DNA of 47,233 bases from Nanobdellota archaeon. GTDB taxonomy: Archaea > Nanobdellota > Nanobdellia > Pacearchaeales > GW2011-AR1. The notes beneath the pieces were generated by a model, which saw nothing but the letters and a program-made list of their open reading frames with translations, was not told the origin of the DNA and did not search any database. Location: positions 1-47,233 of the forward strand of contig JAGVNG010000031.1 of NCBI GenBank assembly GCA_020053375.1, written 5' to 3'. Position numbers and translations under genes: made by a program. Shown here one piece after another: positions 7,917 to 38,855 of this stretch. Within the stretch, counting starts at the first letter, position 1, and every line of letters starts with the position of its first letter.

Positions 7917-8063
7917 TTTTCTCAAATTTAAGTCTTTTTTCTTAACATTACCTTCAATCGTCGTCTATAAAAACCTGCCTTGCACAAATTTGGGCAAGTT
8001 GCACAATAGAGTTTAAAGTTGCACAAAAAGGAAATTTTATATATTTGAAGTATAAGTAATGTG

Positions 8064-8918
8064 ATGCCTTCACCATACAATTTTAGAAGAGGATGGGAAA
8101 GCGAACATTTAGCCAAGTTTATATTATCAAAGTTCTCCTTTGTAGCAGAACCTTCAACCATTTCAGATGATTTAGGTTCTGACTTCTTTTGTACTCTATT
8201 TAAGGTTGAAGATGGAATATATCTCCTTCCTCAAAACTCGTTTGCAATACAAGTCAAAAGTAAAAAAGATGTAGATAGAGATAATAACAAAATAGAAATA
8301 ACTGATAAACAATCCTACTTGAATGGATTAGAAATACCATTCTTTGTGGGGGTAGTTGATAGAGATAATTTAAAATTAAGCATCTATGTGGGGGAATACC
8401 TCTGTGATTATTTTTCGCTTCTTCCAAACCATGGAGAGGTTCAAAAAGTATTTATAGAATTAATTGAAGAAAGAAGTGAGCCGTTAAAAATGTTTAGAGT
8501 GGAGGGTGATAAAGCTTATATTGAGTTTCCGAAAGTACTTGAAATTGAAGCTGGTTATGAATATGCTTCAGACCCTGATAAGATTAAGGATTTATTTAGT
8601 CTTTGTAAACTAATTCAAGAGAATATTGCTTCAAAATTAAGCCACGAATACATTTTCAAAAAATCCAATAACAACTTTTTTTATATCTATACTGGAGGGA
8701 CTTCAGTTCAACATTTTAGAACAAATTTTAAAAAAAGGTTAGCGGAAGTTTTCTTTAATTTGAAGTGGTTACATGATACCAACTCTTTGCCAAAAGAGGC
8801 AATCAAATCAGAGTTTGAAATCTATAAAAGACTTTATTGTGATTTACTTGATAGAGAGGGTAATTTGCCAGACTATTTGACTAAAATATTTGATGAGTTA
8901 AATAGGTTAATGACTTAA
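8064..8918 (+). CDS. DUF4365-like predicted PD-(D/E)XK nuclease
   Basis: N-terminal pattern RGWESEHLAK ... DDLGSDFFC ... FAIQVKSKK (E...D...QxK). Confidence 0.55.
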   Translation: MPSPYNFRRGWESEHLAKFILSKFSFVAEPSTISDDLGSDFFCTLFKVEDGIYLLPQNSFAIQVKSKKDVDRDNNKIEITDKQSYLNGLEIPFFVGVVDRDNLKLSIYVGEYLCDYFSLLPNHGEVQKVFIELIEERSEPLKMFRVEGDKAYIEFPKVLEIEAGYEYASDPDKIKDLFSLCKLIQENIASKLSHEYIFKKSNNNFFYIYTGGTSVQHFRTNFKKRLAEVFFNLKWLHDTNSLPKEAIKSEFEIYKRLYCDLLDREGNLPDYLTKIFDELNRLMT

Positions 8919-8969
8919 TCTCGGCTTTGTTAAATAAGTCCTAATTTTAGCTTACTTTTTTAACAGAAA

Positions 8970-9131
8970 TCATCTCTTTTTCTTTAAAGCCTTGAGTTCT
9001 CTTTCTATTTTTGAGATATGCTTATCAAGAATCCCAAACAAATAATTATCCCTTTCCTTTATTATCATCCAGATTTTATCAACTTCCTTTTCAAGTTTCT
9101 TTATTTTCTTCTCAGTTGCTTTGTCATTCAT
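8970..9131 (-). CDS. 53-aa charged coiled-coil-like micro-ORF
   Basis: MNDKATEKKIKKLEKEVDKIWMIIKERDNYLFGILDKHISKIERELKALKKKR; read by hand, below ORF-track cutoff. Confidence 0.45.
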   Translation of the reverse strand: MNDKATEKKIKKLEKEVDKIWMIIKERDNYLFGILDKHISKIERELKALKKKR

Positions 9132-9271
9132 TTGATTGTTAAAGCTGTTTAATTTAAATACTTTTACGCAGAATTGTCTTTGTTTAATAAGTAGGCGAGA
9201 GCGGGGATTGTCGCATTAAGGGACTTTTGAGTTTTAGGTAAGTTTTTATATAATACCTCATAAATTTGTAT

Positions 9272-12200
9272 ATGAAGGCAGATTTATTCAATGAAAAGAC
9301 AATAAGTAAGTTTATATTGAAAATCGAGCCAAATTCTAAGCAAAAAAGTGCCTCTAAGAAATGGATTGAGTTATTAGAAAAAGATGAACTTCAAGAAGAG
9401 GTGTCTAATTATCCTAGATTTACGGAAATTATATTAAAAGAGATTTTAGGATACGATACACTTAATTTTAAACACGAAGAAAAGAATATGGAATTTCCAT
9501 TTAGAGACAAATCTGGAAACTTTTTAGTATGTTTTGAAGCAAAAGGAACAAAAACTAGCGATTTATGGGCTTTACAAGGCAGAAGCATAAAAATAAGAGA
9601 AACACCTGTAAATCAAATAAATGACTACCTCTATAAAAACAAAATTCCTTTTGGAGTTTTAACAAATTATCGGGAATTTGTTTTATTCAAAAGAGAAGAA
9701 GGATACACTAAGTTCCATAAGTTAGACTTCTTTGATATTAAGAACAATCCTGAAAAATTAAAAGAGTTTATAGCTATATTTTCCAGAGAGAGCTTTGAAG
9801 GAAAAGAGACTGAAAGATTGTATAACCAATCAATAACAGAGGAGAGGAATTTTACAAAAGAATTCTATAAACTGTACCATGAAACAAGACTTATGATTCT
9901 AAAGGAGTTCAAAGAAAGTGGAATTGAAAATGAAATTTGCTTACATTATTCTCAACTATTTTTGAATAGATTAATGTTTATCTTCTTTGCAGAAGATAGC
10001 GATTTACTTGAAAAGAGATATTTTGAAAATAAGATTTTAGAAGTTCTTGATAAAAGTGGAGGAATAGATGGGTATACTAATTATGTTTTTGGGAAGATAA
10101 ACGGGATTTTCAGAGAGTTAGATAAAGAAATTCCTAAGCAAATAAAAGGTTTTAATGGAGAATTGTTCAAAGAAGAAATTGATGGAAGGTTGTCTTTCAA
10201 GGATTATAGAAACCCAAATTTCTTTAAAGACGTATTTCAAAATTATAAATTAGACAAAAGTTTAGAACTAAATGAAAATGATAGACAAATCTTCAACAAG
10301 CATAAAAATAAACTAAACAAGATAATTGAAAATATTTTATTGATGGCTTCTTTTGATTTTGAAACAGAAGTTAATGTTAACATTTTAGGTCATATCTTTG
10401 AACAGTCTATTTCAGACATAGAAAACTTGAAAGAAGAAACATCCTCAAAAAGAAAACAAGAAGGCGTTTTTTATACTCCTGAGTATATAACAGAGTATAT
10501 TTGTAGAAATACTATAGTTCCTTATCTCTCAAAAAGTGGGACTAATGACATTAATCTGTTAATAGAAGAGTATTCAGAGAATATGGGGGAGTTAGAAAAG
10601 AAGTTTAAAGATATTAAAATTTTAGACCCAGCTTGTGGCTCTGGAGCTTTTTTGATTAAATCAACTGAAATTTTGTTTGAAATATTTGAAAAAGTACAAT
10701 GGGTTAAAGAGAACTATGGGGAATATCAAGCGAACAGGGGATTAAAGAGAAAAAGTAATTTTAAAGGACAATCAACATTAAAGAAATGGGATGAAAGAGG
10801 AGAAATAAAAAATATTATAGAGAACAATATTTTTGGGGTGGATATCAACGAAGAATCTGTTGAGATAACTAAGCTATCTTTATTTTTGAAAATAGCGACA
10901 AAAAATAAAAAGTTAATTGACCTTTCAAAAAATATTAAACAAGGCAATAGTCTAATAGATGACGAAGAAATTGCTGGTAAATTGGCTTTTAATTGGGATA
11001 AAGAATTTCCATTCAAGTTTGATGTTGTTATAGGCAATCCACCTTATGGTGCAAAAATGAATGAAGAGGAAGTAAAATTCGTGAAAAAGAATTATTCTGT
11101 TGGCAACTCAGAAACAGCACAGTTAATGATGGAGAAAGCATATTCTTTGCTTAAGGAAAATGGATATCATGGTTTTATAATTCCAAAAGCATTTACTTTT
11201 GTGTCTACTTGGGATAAAATAAGGAACAAATTTTTAGATGAATTGAATACTTTAATTGATTGTAAAAAGGTTTGGAAGGAGGTTAAGTTAGAGCAAATAG
11301 TGTATACTCTTCAAAAAGGAAATAAGTTGAGCAAATACAATTCTGGAATAAGAGATAATCAATCAATAAAAATTATAGCTAATGTGGACAAGTCACTTAT
11401 TCCTAAATTTGATGGCGTTTTATTAAACTCTTTAACAAATCAAGAGATTAAAATTGGTTCAAAAATTAAGGATATAAGGACTAATTTAGGAAAGATTGGG
11501 ATTAACAAATGGGGAGATGTATTCTACAAACAAATGAATCAAGACAAAAAAGGATTTAAGGTTTTGGGAGGTAATGAAATACAAAGATACTATAAGAGAG
11601 GCGTTAAGGGGTATATTGAAGAGAAGTATGTTAAAACAGACCAATCTTTAATAAAACCAAATTCTATTCTACTACAAAGAATAATTTCACATATTGAAAA
11701 CCCCATAGACCATTTAAAAATTTCTGGAACTATTTTTGATGAATCTGATTATAGGATTGTGAACACCGTTCATCAATTAAATCTGGATAAAGATGTCTCT
11801 AATAAGTATGTTTTAGCAATTATGAATTCTAATTTTATGAATTGGTTTGTTTACAGATTCGTGTTTGCTAAAGCGATAAGAAGCTTTCAGTTTTCAGGAG
11901 ATGTTGCAAAAAAGATACCAATTCCAAAAATCTCTTTAAAAGAACAAGAGCCATTTATAGAAAAAGTGGATTTAATGCTTAAGTTGAATAAAGATTTTTA
12001 TGAAAAGAGAGATAAAATCTTAAGGTTACTGAAACAAGAGTATAACCTGAGTAAAATTACTCAAAAATTGGAAAGATTCCATGAATTAGACTTTGACGGA
12101 TTTATCAAACAATTAGGAGTTAACAATTTGAGCATGAGTAAAAAGTCTGAACTACTTGATTTTTTTGATAAAAACAAGAAAGAGATATCAGAGATAGACA

Positions 12201-12298
12201 GTAAAATTGAAAAAACGGATGGCGAAATAAACAAAATGGTTTATGACTTATACGGAATCACAGACCCTAAAGAAAGAGAGATTATTAGAAATTCTTAG
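9272..12298 (+). CDS. Type IIG-like restriction-modification enzyme (Eco57I-type N6-adenine methylase fused to nuclease domain)
   Basis: DPACGSGAFL and NPPYG methylase motifs; N-terminal FPFRDKSGNFLVCFEAKG (D...ExK); C-terminal specificity region; TATA box ~25 nt before ATG 9272. Confidence 0.88.
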   Translation: MKADLFNEKTISKFILKIEPNSKQKSASKKWIELLEKDELQEEVSNYPRFTEIILKEILGYDTLNFKHEEKNMEFPFRDKSGNFLVCFEAKGTKTSDLWALQGRSIKIRETPVNQINDYLYKNKIPFGVLTNYREFVLFKREEGYTKFHKLDFFDIKNNPEKLKEFIAIFSRESFEGKETERLYNQSITEERNFTKEFYKLYHETRLMILKEFKESGIENEICLHYSQLFLNRLMFIFFAEDSDLLEKRYFENKILEVLDKSGGIDGYTNYVFGKINGIFRELDKEIPKQIKGFNGELFKEEIDGRLSFKDYRNPNFFKDVFQNYKLDKSLELNENDRQIFNKHKNKLNKIIENILLMASFDFETEVNVNILGHIFEQSISDIENLKEETSSKRKQEGVFYTPEYITEYICRNTIVPYLSKSGTNDINLLIEEYSENMGELEKKFKDIKILDPACGSGAFLIKSTEILFEIFEKVQWVKENYGEYQANRGLKRKSNFKGQSTLKKWDERGEIKNIIENNIFGVDINEESVEITKLSLFLKIATKNKKLIDLSKNIKQGNSLIDDEEIAGKLAFNWDKEFPFKFDVVIGNPPYGAKMNEEEVKFVKKNYSVGNSETAQLMMEKAYSLLKENGYHGFIIPKAFTFVSTWDKIRNKFLDELNTLIDCKKVWKEVKLEQIVYTLQKGNKLSKYNSGIRDNQSIKIIANVDKSLIPKFDGVLLNSLTNQEIKIGSKIKDIRTNLGKIGINKWGDVFYKQMNQDKKGFKVLGGNEIQRYYKRGVKGYIEEKYVKTDQSLIKPNSILLQRIISHIENPIDHLKISGTIFDESDYRIVNTVHQLNLDKDVSNKYVLAIMNSNFMNWFVYRFVFAKAIRSFQFSGDVAKKIPIPKISLKEQEPFIEKVDLMLKLNKDFYEKRDKILRLLKQEYNLSKITQKLERFHELDFDGFIKQLGVNNLSMSKKSELLDFFDKNKKEISEIDSKIEKTDGEINKMVYDLYGITDPKEREIIRNS

Positions 12299-12310
12299 TA
12301 TCATTTTAAT

Positions 12311-12439
12311 TTAACTCCATCTCCTCCGTCTCGCTAAAAAGGTTATTCTTCGTCTTCTTCCTTCTGGAGACCTTGCTACAAATGAAACTCTTCTTCTGAG
12401 AGGTACTCTCCTTCTTATAAGTGCAAATCTTCTTGCCAT
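12311..12439 (-). CDS. 42-aa Arg-rich micro-protein
   Basis: MARRFALIRRRVPLRRRVSFVARSPEGRRRRITFLARRRRWS; starts 2 nt after the stop of the 12442-12630 gene. Confidence 0.55.
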   Translation of the reverse strand: MARRFALIRRRVPLRRRVSFVARSPEGRRRRITFLARRRRWS

Positions 12440-12441
12440 TT

Positions 12442-12630
12442 TTATTGTTCTTCAAGTAGACCTTGGTCTTCCATCAATTTTAGGTATTTCTTTATCAGTT
12501 GTGGACTCTTTGTTATTCCTTGTTTTTCTAACTCAATTTTTAGTTCTCTTATACTAAGAGGTCTATTTTCTCTATCTAAGATAGATGAGATTTTTTCCAT
12601 AATTTCCTTTTGTGTTTTAGTCGTGACCAT
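12442..12630 (-). CDS. Small winged-helix/HTH-like protein
   Basis: ISSILDRENRPLSIRELKIELEKQGITKSPQLIKKYLKLMEDQGLL. Confidence 0.65.
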   Translation of the reverse strand: MVTTKTQKEIMEKISSILDRENRPLSIRELKIELEKQGITKSPQLIKKYLKLMEDQGLLEEQ

Positions 12631-12886
12631 TTATCTCCTCTTTTTCAAATTTTTCTTTATCTTCTAAAAAACCTTCCAAATGTAGATTTTCTTTGTCTAA
12701 TAAAAAAACAAAAACATCTGTTTGGGGATTTATATCCAATGCTTCTGCAAACTGTTTGGGTATTCTAACACTAAGCTGTTTACCATCATCGATTATTCTA
12801 ACTGGAATTCCTACTAAATTTTCTGGCTTATCCTCTTTCTTCTTATTTTGTTTTTCTTCCATTTTTGCATCCTTTATGATTTTCAT
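12617..12886 (-). CDS. AbrB/SpoVT-like DNA-binding protein
   Basis: GIPVRIIDDGKQLSVRIPKQFAEALDINPQTDVFVFLLD; ATG at 12886 or 12862. Confidence 0.65.
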   Translation of the reverse strand: MKIIKDAKMEEKQNKKKEDKPENLVGIPVRIIDDGKQLSVRIPKQFAEALDINPQTDVFVFLLDKENLHLEGFLEDKEKFEKEEINGHD

Positions 12887-13022
12887 AGAAGTCAATTAGA
12901 GTCTCAACAATCTGCGAATCTGTAGTTTTTCTTTCCACAAAATCCAGTTTGTCCATTCTCTTTTTAACCTCCTTTTTTACTCTGGTTTGGCAGTCCTTAC
13001 TTCCCATAAGAGACTTACTCAT
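12843..13022 (-). CDS. 59-aa possible ribbon-helix-helix-type regulator
   Basis: Hand-read ORF MSKSLMGSKDCQTRVKKEVKKRMDKLDFVERKTTDSQIVETLIDFYENHKGCKNGRKTK; just below ORF-track cutoff; overlaps start of AbrB gene. Confidence 0.5.
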   Translation of the reverse strand: MSKSLMGSKDCQTRVKKEVKKRMDKLDFVERKTTDSQIVETLIDFYENHKGCKNGRKTK

Positions 13023-13036
13023 TTCTCTTTTATAAA

Positions 13037-13081
13037 AGTATTCAAAGAATACTCTGAATACTAAGTATTCTTTGTATTCAG
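13037..13081. promoter_or_regulatory. Operator-like cluster of AGTATTC/GAATACT half-sites
   Basis: AGTATTC-aaa-GAATACT (13037-13053), GAATACT-a-AGTATTC (13056-13070), then GTATTCAG; immediately upstream of the regulator operon. Confidence 0.65.
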
Positions 13082-13263
13082 CATATTTAAGCTTTTCTAT
13101 ACAGCGGACGACAGATGGAAAGACTTAAATAGTCAATAGAACAATAGTTTATATCTGTCGGACGATAGATTATAGTAAAGACTGGCAGTCCTTACTTCCT
13201 ATCAGGGTAGAACGCAGTGGGAGGTTATCAAAAACTCCGTTCACCCACGACAGAATTTTAATC

Positions 13264-14301
13264 ATGGAAGATGAAATATACAAGATAACACAAGGGCAGA
13301 AGAAGCTTAGCGAATGGGGTGTAGAAGCTGATAAGCCCTTCAACTGGTCTGCTTACAACAATAGTCAGACCAAAGAGAAGATAATGTTCATAGAGCTTCT
13401 TAATGACCTCTGTCAATTAGTGGATGATAAAGACTCTGACATGTATGGAAGGGATAGAAAGTCAGTAGCTCATAAAATATTCTGTATTGGTCTCAAGGCT
13501 TATTCTAACACAAGCTCAAGAAGGCTTATCTCTGAATTAGAGTTATGTAAGAGAAAGGGTTTTTTGAATTCGGTTCCACATTTTAACACCGTGCTTAATT
13601 ATCTTGATGATATAAATGTAAAAAGAGTTTTGAATTATCTAATAGAGTTATCTGCTTTGCCTTTAGCACAACTTGAGAATCAGAGTTTTGCGATAGATTC
13701 CACAGGATTTTCAGAAAGAAAATACTTGGACAGATGGAGTGTCATAAGACAAGAATATTCTAAGCACAAAGCATACAAAAAAGCTCATTGTATTTATGGA
13801 ACTAAGAGTAATGTAGTGGTTTCAGCTATTATTACCGACGGCAATTCAGCAGATTCTCCAAGATTCAAGGAGTTGTTAAGTAGTGCTTCAAGAAACTTTG
13901 ATGTAAAGGAAATTACAGCAGATTTAGCTTATTCATCAAGAGAAAACCTACAACATGCTGAAAATCTGAATATAACCCCTTTCATTCCATTCAAGAAGAA
14001 CGCCATCGGAGCATCTAAGGGAGCAACAATCTGGAATAAGATGTATAAACACTTCAAAAACAATCCAGATGACTTTCTAAAGCATTATCATGCAAGGTCA
14101 AATGCAGAATCTGGCTTCTTTATGATAAAACAGAGGTTCGGAGACTTTGTAAGATGTAAAACAGACCTATCACAGACCAATGAAGTCCTTGCAAAAATAC
14201 TTTGTCACAACATTTGCGTTCTCATTCAAGAGGTCTTTTTATCAAAAATTGAAACTGACTTTTTTCTTTGTGCAAAACACTATGTTGCACAGCGTCGGTA
14301 A
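13264..14301 (+). CDS. DDE transposase (DDE_Tnp_1/IS4-IS5-like)
   Basis: AIDSTGF ... EITADLAYSSREN ... HARSNAESGFFMIKQRFGDFVRCK. Confidence 0.85.
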   Translation: MEDEIYKITQGQKKLSEWGVEADKPFNWSAYNNSQTKEKIMFIELLNDLCQLVDDKDSDMYGRDRKSVAHKIFCIGLKAYSNTSSRRLISELELCKRKGFLNSVPHFNTVLNYLDDINVKRVLNYLIELSALPLAQLENQSFAIDSTGFSERKYLDRWSVIRQEYSKHKAYKKAHCIYGTKSNVVVSAIITDGNSADSPRFKELLSSASRNFDVKEITADLAYSSRENLQHAENLNITPFIPFKKNAIGASKGATIWNKMYKHFKNNPDDFLKHYHARSNAESGFFMIKQRFGDFVRCKTDLSQTNEVLAKILCHNICVLIQEVFLSKIETDFFLCAKHYVAQRR

Positions 14302-15453: not shown

Positions 15454-15537
15454 GCGGGAGTGCCGGAGTGGTCAAACGGGTCAGCCTTAGGAGCTGATAG
15501 CTTAGTGCTTACATAGGTTCGAATCCTATCTCCCGCA
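15454..15537 (+). tRNA. tRNA-Leu(TAG)
   Basis: GCGGGAG/CTCCCGC acceptor, TCAGC-CTTAGGA-GCTGA anticodon arm, long variable arm. Confidence 0.93.
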
Positions 15538-15540
15538 TAT
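15515..15540 (+). repeat. Direct repeat copy 1 (att-like, within tRNA-Leu 3' end)
   Basis: aggttcgaatcctatctcccgcatat, 26 bp identical to 16753-16778. Confidence 0.92.
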
Positions 15541-15609
15541 TTGTATATTTGTTTATTAATCATTTCAAAAAACAAAAGATTTATATATTATAACGTATAA
15601 TTACGTAAT

Positions 15610-16428
15610 ATGGAAGAAATAGTGGCGAGAATAAGCAAGGGAAGTAAAATGGATCAAATCTACATACCAAAAAATAGAATAAGTCTGGAAAACGGCGCAT
15701 TTGTTATAATAAGACCTCTTTCTGAGCAAATAAAAAAGAGAGAAAATGTCAAGAAAGAAACCCCCTATTTTTACAGAATTAAAAAGATTGAACCAGTAAA
15801 AATGCGAATAATCAATGAAATATTCTCAATTATAGAAGGTAATGTGAAATCTTATGATAACATTATTATAACGGGCTCTATTCTCGAAATGGGATTTAAA
15901 TTCAATGATATAGACATAATCATATTATCCGAAGAAAAAATAAACGAAAACATACTGAAAGAAAAAATAGAATTAAAGACAGGAATAATAACCCATATTA
16001 TTTACCTTTCTAAAAAAGCGCTACAGCAAGGTTTGGAAATAGATCCTCTTTACCAATCAATGTTATCAAAATGCGTGTCAAAAAAAAGATTTTTTTTTAG
16101 ACTAAAAAGGAAAATAGAATATAAAATATTGGATTTGCACCTGTTGAAAAGTGAACCAATAATTCATAGTTTTGATATTTTAAATGGAGAACAAAAATAC
16201 CATTTTGCAAGAAATCTTATAGCCATAAAGTTATTTCTGGAAAACAAAAAAGTTGATAATGAAGATATTAATAAAGAAATAATAAAATTATTCGGATTAA
16301 AGGATATAAATGAAATAAAAGATAATTTGCTGGAAAAAAAGAAATTCCTTCATAAATATGAAAATTTATATAAACAACTTTCTAATACAATTCTGAGAAA
16401 TATAAAAAATGGTTCAAAACAGAAATAA
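15610..16428 (+). CDS. Nucleotidyltransferase-fold protein with AbrB-like N-terminal segment
   Basis: DQIYIPKNRISLENGAFVIIRPL; IITGSILEMGFKFNDIDIIILS resembles GSx(n)DxD NTase motif. Confidence 0.5.
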   Translation: MEEIVARISKGSKMDQIYIPKNRISLENGAFVIIRPLSEQIKKRENVKKETPYFYRIKKIEPVKMRIINEIFSIIEGNVKSYDNIIITGSILEMGFKFNDIDIIILSEEKINENILKEKIELKTGIITHIIYLSKKALQQGLEIDPLYQSMLSKCVSKKRFFFRLKRKIEYKILDLHLLKSEPIIHSFDILNGEQKYHFARNLIAIKLFLENKKVDNEDINKEIIKLFGLKDINEIKDNLLEKKKFLHKYENLYKQLSNTILRNIKNGSKQK

Positions 16429-16488
16429 ATTAATTGTCTTGCTGGTTGGGAATATATCCAATTCAATAATCCATACAATTAGCCAGAG

Positions 16489-16734
16489 TTGACAGACAAA
16501 TACAAAAGAGAATCAATTTCTAGTTTCGAAATTGCCATGAGATACAGAGAAAAAATGAATCCTCTAATCGAGCCTTTTTCCCTAACAGATATTGAACACA
16601 TAAAAAACAAGATTATCAAAAAAGTAACGGCAGAATTAAGGAGAAGAATTTTAAATTGTTATGAACACATAAATCTCTCTTTAATCGAAAAAGAAGTGGA
16701 CAGGACATTGAAAAGCCTCAAAATTTCTGATTAG
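16489..16734 (+). CDS. Small helical hypothetical protein, TTG start or ATG at ~16537
   Basis: Follows the NTase-like gene inside the tRNA-Leu insert. Confidence 0.4.
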   Translation: MTDKYKRESISSFEIAMRYREKMNPLIEPFSLTDIEHIKNKIIKKVTAELRRRILNCYEHINLSLIEKEVDRTLKSLKISD

Positions 16735-16752
16735 ATGATTATTGCTTATCAA

Positions 16753-16778
16753 AGGTTCGAATCCTATCTCCCGCATAT
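16753..16778 (+). repeat. Direct repeat copy 2 of tRNA-Leu 3' end
   Basis: 26-bp identity with 15515-15540. Confidence 0.92.
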
Positions 16779-16818
16779 AAAGGATTCGACTAATTGGTTT
16801 AAATGAAAAGGGAAGCTT

Positions 16819-16846
16819 ATAAAAGAAACCGCAAGGTGTCTTTTAT
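16819..16846 (+). other. Hairpin ATAAAAGA-a-ACC-GCAA-GGT-g-TCTTTTAT with GNRA tetraloop
   Basis: 8-bp plus 3-bp perfect complementarity. Confidence 0.7.
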
Positions 16847-16848
16847 TT

Positions 16849-16866
16849 GAATCCTATCTCCCGCAT
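16849..16866 (+). repeat. Direct repeat copy 3 of tRNA-Leu 3' end
   Basis: gaatcctatctcccgcat, 18-bp identity with 15521-15538. Confidence 0.88.
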
Positions 16867-38701: not shown

Positions 38702-38723
38702 ATGCGGGTAGAAGGGTTCAAAC
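38702..38723 (-). repeat. Second copy of tRNA-Leu 3' end
   Basis: 21/22 identity to 38771-38792. Confidence 0.88.
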
Positions 38724-38771
38724 TAAAAACCACCTGCGGGTTTTTGATCCTGCCCCATCGAACCCTTTGAA

Positions 38772-38855
38772 TGCGGGTAGAAGGGTTCGAACCTTCGTAG
38801 GCACTAAGCCATCAGGTCCTTAACCTGACCCGTTTGACCACTCCGGCATACCCGC
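38772..38855 (-). tRNA. tRNA-Leu, anticodon reads AAG
   Basis: GCGGGTA/TACCCGC acceptor, TCAGG-TTAAGGA-CCTGA anticodon arm, long variable arm; same length as tRNA-Leu(TAG) at 15454. Confidence 0.88.

Follow-up and report, generated by a model that had tools for sequence, protein, structure and literature searches.

A short palindromic repeat at tRNA ends, gene starts and reading frames of Pacearchaeota: probably a mobile element tolerated at RNA boundaries

The window analyzed here, a stretch of 47,233 nucleotides that forms contig C29 of the home genome G000 (679 kb, 33 contigs; its tRNA loci were analyzed as separate stretches), raises the question of what lies downstream of its tRNA-Leu(UAG) gene. 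A sequence-only reading had described positions 16753–16866 as a structured trailer element of this tRNA, related to the trailer of a second tRNA-Leu, and had taken a covarying outer helix as support for a real RNA or DNA fold. The segments it picked out here and in the minus-strand trailer are correct letter for letter, and AGGATTC (16781–16787) is indeed able to pair with GAATCCT (16849–16855). The features of the locus are as follows.

15454–15537, plus strand: tRNA-Leu(UAG) (ARAGORN and Rfam RF00005), with its 3' end copied twice downstream
15515–15538, plus strand: 3'-end copy 1, AGGTTCGAATCCTATCTCCCGCAT, within the intact tRNA (exact match)
15539–16752, plus strand: 1.2-kb insert between copies 1 and 2, with 24-nt direct repeats at both ends
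15610–16428, plus strand: ORF of 272 aa in the insert, with patchy homologues in the family
16753–16776, plus strand: 3'-end copy 2, AGGTTCGAATCCTATCTCCCGCAT, displaced (24 nt identical)
16777–16848, plus strand: repeat element comprising left arm, linker, conserved AAAAGGGAAGCTT and hairpin (model R1, similarity)
16779–16789, plus strand: left arm of the repeat, AAAGGATTCGA
16819–16846, plus strand: conserved hairpin ATAAAAGAAACC-GCAA-GGTGTCTTTTAT with one A.G stem mismatch (covariation counts, fold)
16821–16844, plus strand: hairpin segment around AAAAGAAACCGCAAGGTGTCTTTT
16849–16866, plus strand: 3'-end copy 3, GAATCCTATCTCCCGCAT, displaced (18 nt identical)

The displaced 3'-end copies are real, but the segment does not directly trail tRNA-Leu(UAG), since the 1.2-kb ORF-bearing insert lies between them. 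The repeat member between copies 2 and 3 is about 72 nt long and is matched at 16803–16847, with 65.8 bits, by R1, a covariance model of the core (45 positions, 10 pairs, 32 sequences). Its left arm resembles the 5' T-stem strand of tRNA-Leu(UAG) and is complementary to the T-loop/T-stem 3' strand of that tRNA, TCGAATCCT.

The insert at 15539–16752 is probably explained by a tRNA integration footprint; it has the look of a classical one, but without an integrase. The protein of its ORF had no Pfam match, no PDB match and exclusively sub-threshold NCBIfam matches, and relatives were scattered over 19 of 126 family genomes. Seven of its closest relatives were inspected: a duplicated tRNA 3' end was absent from all of them, and only one lay near a tRNA. 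On these grounds, together with the lack of a family, the ORF was rejected as the mobilizer of the repeat. The stretch 8061–14301, shortly before a TFB-like gene and tRNA-Leu(UAG), holds a Type IIG restriction-modification gene (9266–12298), beside which lie an unassigned ORF (8061–8918) and a DDE transposase (13264–14301).

The second tRNA-Leu of the window served as a comparison locus.

38772–38855, minus strand: tRNA-Leu(AAG) (ARAGORN and Rfam)
38702–38771, minus strand: trailer of like layout (sequence, fold)
38768–38758, minus strand: left arm of this trailer, AAAGGGTTCGA
38745–38725, minus strand: inner hairpin AAAAACCCGCAGGTGGTTTTT, which differs from that at tRNA-Leu(UAG)
38719–38702, minus strand: displaced 3'-end copy, GAACCCTTCTACCCGCAT

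The kinship proposed for the two Leu trailers holds for their layout, but the inner hairpins of the two differ in sequence. By sequence, the 16777–16848 core is truly related within the home genome to the tRNA-Arg(CCT) trailer, which lies on a separate contig, C31 (L010/L017), and is 88% identical (E=2e-21); there, 21 nt duplicated from the 3' end of tRNA-Arg(CCT) itself come after the core. The covariation argument for the outer helix is weak because GAATCCT and GAACCCTT copy each locus's own tRNA, and it is the left arm, not the tRNA-copy arm, that carries the information, fitting the local tRNA above chance. Of the proposed fold, a structured, repeated element with a covarying inner stem stands, whereas the fold strength of single trailers is modest: in four trailers, the z-scores were −1.87 and −1.57 (the two Leu trailers), −0.60 and −2.48, and the minimum-energy fold of the tRNA-Leu(AAG) trailer lacks the claimed outer helix.

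Across the seven Leu/Arg-type loci inspected, the left arm has the sequence GGATTCGA or GGATTTGA, matching the local G57 or A57 (at tRNA-Leu(AAG) it is GGGTTCGA); as read by eye, the odds of this match at the G/A site taken by itself are 1 in 35. Left arms of the Thr/Glu/Val/Ser type start with 4–5 nt that match the local 5' T-stem strand exactly or almost exactly (CCAAG, GCAG, CCGT, CCGA). A permutation of left arms against local tRNAs over 22 trailers, with the window fixed and the register free, gave p=0.003 for Watson-Crick pairs and 0.09 when G-U pairs were included; after removal of similar loci, the values were 0.003 and 0.034, respectively. Hand-aligned 5-mers, for which register and loci were picked after inspection, gave p=6e-5 to 6e-4. 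Locus-specific complementarity of the left arm, a post-hoc observation made on sequences, is likely though not beyond doubt. It would fit a selective advantage of sequestering the displaced copy, or else an origin by duplication of a piece of the local tRNA jointly with its 5' T-stem strand.

The constant part of the repeat is AAAGGGAAGYTT(N)AAAAGAAACC-NNNN-GGTGTCTTTT. The conserved module can also be written as AAAGGGAAGYTT with an imperfect hairpin after it, AAGAAACC-NNNN-GGTGTCTT, which has one A.G mismatch and a covarying lower stem that swaps AAAA/TTTT for GCG/CGC-, TGT/ACA- or GAAAA/TTTTC-type pairs. In an alignment of related copies, 93.8% of the inner-stem cells are paired, compared to 89.3% after shuffling, and 13 cells show double changes, compared to 4.1 after shuffling and well above slid registers. 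This inner hairpin is conserved across genera, and a short tag, GGGAAG/GGAAG, is conserved 5' of it (alignment A1). Upstream of the module there are optional hairpins of at least two types, and other hairpin types nest in or beside the repeat (as in the tRNA-Val leader of G105), the length of which is about 70–145 bp. Examined by eye in alignments of filled and empty sites for features of MITEs, the repeat showed no terminal inverted repeat, and direct repeats were seen only at L083 (like GAAGAAGAAAA) and L076 (ATG). A protein-coding origin (as KGKLIKETARCLL or other readings) was rejected, the one hairpin being read in differing frames according to context.

To regard the segment as a trailer element of tRNA-Leu is to miss a genome-wide repeat that also stands at mRNA starts, in ORFs and in tRNA leaders. 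By BLAST, 43 of 138 family genomes contain the core, although chance may account for some of the weakest hits, with E near 0.01. Ten genomes have 3 to 68 R1 matches each; the three of the home genome are in the tRNA-Leu trailer, in the tRNA-Arg trailer and immediately before the start codon of an rpoP-like gene (C14:6308–6353). At E≤1e-4, a stricter filter that loses weak matches, R1 was found in 16 of 327 phylum genomes, 14 of them in the home family. Among 84,980 species (one genome each), 22 stretches contain the exact hairpin pattern, all of them from Pacearchaeota/Nanoarchaeota MAGs. A viral origin was considered and rejected: neither the exact hairpin (searched for in 2.9 million viral contigs) nor a relative of ORF 15610–16428 was found in viral contigs. 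On contig C3 of G095, the listed R1 matches are all on the minus strand and extend over about 450 kb. We found no description of the repeat in the open-access literature searched, and the family seems to be undescribed.

The loci studied were partly picked by similarity to a tRNA-trailer copy, so that the frequencies of contexts given here are biased. The tRNAs with the repeat behind them are Leu and Arg in the home genome and Thr, Ser, Glu, Val, Gly, and Leu in relatives. Most of 22 trailers continue from the repeat into a duplicate of the 3' end of the local tRNA, although in a few cases this duplicate is short or decayed. These displaced copies usually start at T-stem base 53 or T54, that is, at the T-stem/T-loop junction, and extend to 1–3 nt beyond the discriminator. 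The first 3'-end copy yields a full tRNA (ARAGORN), and T-stem or acceptor-region mismatches are found in displaced copies at L054, L071, L099, and L179. The repeat also stands directly before Val, Ala, Leu, and Thr tRNAs, ending at most 2 nt from the mature 5' end, and one copy is located in a tRNA intron (L061). Copies near tRNAs are almost all in sense orientation, the exceptions seen being L098, L155, and L060; at L098 (G130:C30), the end of the antisense copy abuts the tRNA-Thr 3' end exactly. For copies in tRNA trailers, the comparison yielded no clean empty site: at the tRNA-Val locus of G105 the trailer copy is absent, but the downstream neighbor differs as well. In three home-genome leaders (L020, L026, and L028, on C27, C30, and C3), a copy of the tRNA 5' end stands 60–66 nt upstream of the tRNA and is followed by its inverted complement (e.g., GCTCAGTCTGGT ... 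ACCAGATGAGC, z −2.96), an arrangement that mirrors the 3' trailers.

Away from tRNAs, close relatives have sites both filled and empty. In G130, the repeat is found in frame inside ORFs, the G095 orthologues of which are without the insert of ~60 nt; likewise, a start-codon copy in G071 is missing from the orthologous start in G105. Copies precede rpoP-like genes in three genera and RFC-like genes in two (names read from the sequences by eye). A coupled short ORF, the stop of which falls within −3 to +5 of the start codon (TGATG, TAATG, ATGA), was found at 19 of 24 element-adjacent ATG starts versus 20 of 364 other genes at the same loci (Fisher p=3e-17, although the copies are not independent). 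The coupled ORFs comprise 19–60 codons, beginning upstream of the core and crossing the hairpin, which carries GAGGTG or AGGTG at Shine-Dalgarno distance from the start. The leader peptide is not what is conserved, because the single hairpin is read in several frames (KKPRGVF*, KETGGVF*, KRNQGGVF*). Around these gene-start copies, no direct repeats were evident except for a duplicated ATG.

In our assessment, 16777–16866 is probably an insertion, at a tRNA 3' end, of a short, non-coding, palindromic and mobile repeat of Pacearchaeota that would be harmless at the RNA level, a reading built on sequence comparison. Insertion into a tRNA would leave an intact tRNA together with a displaced, decaying copy of its 3' end. 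In the precursor, the left arm may fold onto the displaced copy and leave the true T-arm without a competitor, upon which tRNase Z would cut the whole trailer off at the tRNA's true 3' end. Ahead of a gene, the repeat would bring in its hairpin a Shine-Dalgarno sequence (GAGGTG/AGGTG) and a short upstream ORF ending in TGATG or TAATG, such that a presumably leaderless gene could still be translated via termination-reinitiation. The repeat would then be a selfish sequence with insertions that are neutral at the RNA level, moved most likely by a trans-acting enzyme that works on the folded single strand and has since been lost in many hosts, or else by template switching at tRNA homology.

Three kinds of known enzyme were considered as the mover, in genomes that are all MAGs (G095, which has 16 R1 matches, is in just 5 contigs). 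Y1 transposases occur in 48 of 126 family genomes, including G071, G117, G132, and G000, and are absent from the copy-bearing G095, G078, G103, G069, G075, and G130. Phage_integrase (PF00589) had no match in the copy-rich G095 and G078, and RT was absent from 12 of 17 genomes tested, these two among them. With several copy-rich genomes lacking them, all three were rejected; the mover may be an unrecognized enzyme, an enzyme since lost, or template switching.

The locus could alternatively be read as the footprint of site-specific integration, in which tyrosine recombinases acted successively at the tRNA T-loop, leaving 16753–16776 and 16849–16866 as attR-like partial copies of the tRNA and the hairpin as a remnant of the integrated element. 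A 3'-end duplication that begins at the T-loop, opposite an intact tRNA, is the classical signature of tRNA targeting (PMC9897764), and such a history agrees well with the 1.2-kb insert that separates copies 1 and 2. We nevertheless judge this unlikely for the repeat, which is short and non-coding, places one core behind many different tRNAs that each have their own 3' end, and occurs before start codons and tRNAs and within ORFs, with no att-like repeat seen there; the copy-rich G095 and G078, without a Phage_integrase match, also argue against it.

We give little credence to the idea that the repeat is a conserved cis-regulatory leader or trailer of the translation machinery (tRNAs, RpoP, PheT, L10e, RFC), spread by recruitment, in which a hairpin with an embedded Shine-Dalgarno sequence and a coupled leader ORF tunes expression. 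The recurrence before rpoP-like and RFC-like genes of several genera, the strong stop/start coupling and the conserved hairpin would all be expected of such an element, but its in-frame ORF copies are missing in a sister genome, tandem or array copies in G117, G095, and G028 do not stand at gene starts of this kind, its occurrence is patchy between genomes, and the reading frame through the hairpin varies. Comparably doubtful is a spread via RNA, whereby the repeat would be joined to the ends of cellular RNAs—the 5' ends of leaderless mRNAs, mature tRNAs and tRNA 3' fragments cut at the T-loop—and copied back into DNA; if true, this would explain the sense orientation, the exact placement at RNA boundaries and the local tRNA fragment in each trailer. 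A self-cleaving or splicing RNA, with an intron- or ribozyme-like trailer and the displaced copy as second exon, is very improbable, for although one copy sits in a tRNA intron and base pairing between the left arm and the displaced T-stem strand is conceivable, an Rfam search of the repeat, at gathering thresholds and at E up to 1, returned only tRNA, 5S and chance-level matches and no ribozyme or intron family, in-frame ORF copies are readable unspliced, and splicing to the displaced copy was rejected because displaced copies decay while the first copy remains a full tRNA.

The mobile palindromic repeat that we favor has counterparts among known systems. Rickettsia palindromic elements are found in frame in protein genes and also in RNA genes (PMC2229807), and the Pacearchaeota repeat shares with them both kinds of insertion as well as a palindromic, non-autonomous, dispersed and lineage-restricted nature at a size of ~100 nt. 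The likeness is one of kind, with no sequence relation evident, and homology is not claimed, since the exact hairpin turned up only in Pacearchaeota/Nanoarchaeota; the host is archaeal, and unlike these elements, the repeat duplicates the tRNA 3' end, may carry a second hairpin, and stands exactly at start codons with its Shine-Dalgarno hairpin and coupled ORF. REP/GTAG palindromes, which are mobilized by RAYT (Y1, HUH) transposases (PMC3733652), likewise have a short conserved tag 5' of a mismatched hairpin and many copies per genome; in the Pacearchaeota repeat, however, the tag is GGGAAG/GGAAG rather than GTAG or CGTC, and several copy-rich genomes are without a Y1 transposase. Archaeal tRNA-targeting integrative elements leave partial tRNAs (PMC9897764), and the intact tRNA with a displaced 3'-end copy is common to both, whereas the repeat measures 72–145 nt, contains no integrase gene, uses many tRNA species with their own ends and occupies non-tRNA sites too. 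The kind of element, a palindromic selfish repeat, is ordinary; its host, its anatomy and its mode of tolerance at RNA boundaries are new.

The insertions appear to leave the gene working. If our reading is right, archaea of small size and highly compact genome carry a selfish repeat that is rendered harmless at several kinds of RNA boundary, by duplication of the tRNA 3' end, in removable leaders and introns, in in-frame ORFs, and through a Shine-Dalgarno hairpin with a coupled ORF. It would provide natural cases on which to test termination-reinitiation in DPANN archaea, account for tRNA-end fragments that confuse annotation, and raise the question of the mover in hosts without known transposases.

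Two further sets of hairpins were observed. In the home genome, a second palindrome family around TTTAGTTTCAGT is found behind tRNAs (L004, L008, L009, L027, and L037), and in several cases it gives way to a degraded duplicate of the tRNA 3' end. A related hairpin, AAAAGGAGATGTCATAAGAAGAACC-TT-GGTTCTTTTTA, is present in dozens of copies per genome in G117 and G132, on many contigs and often in arrays.
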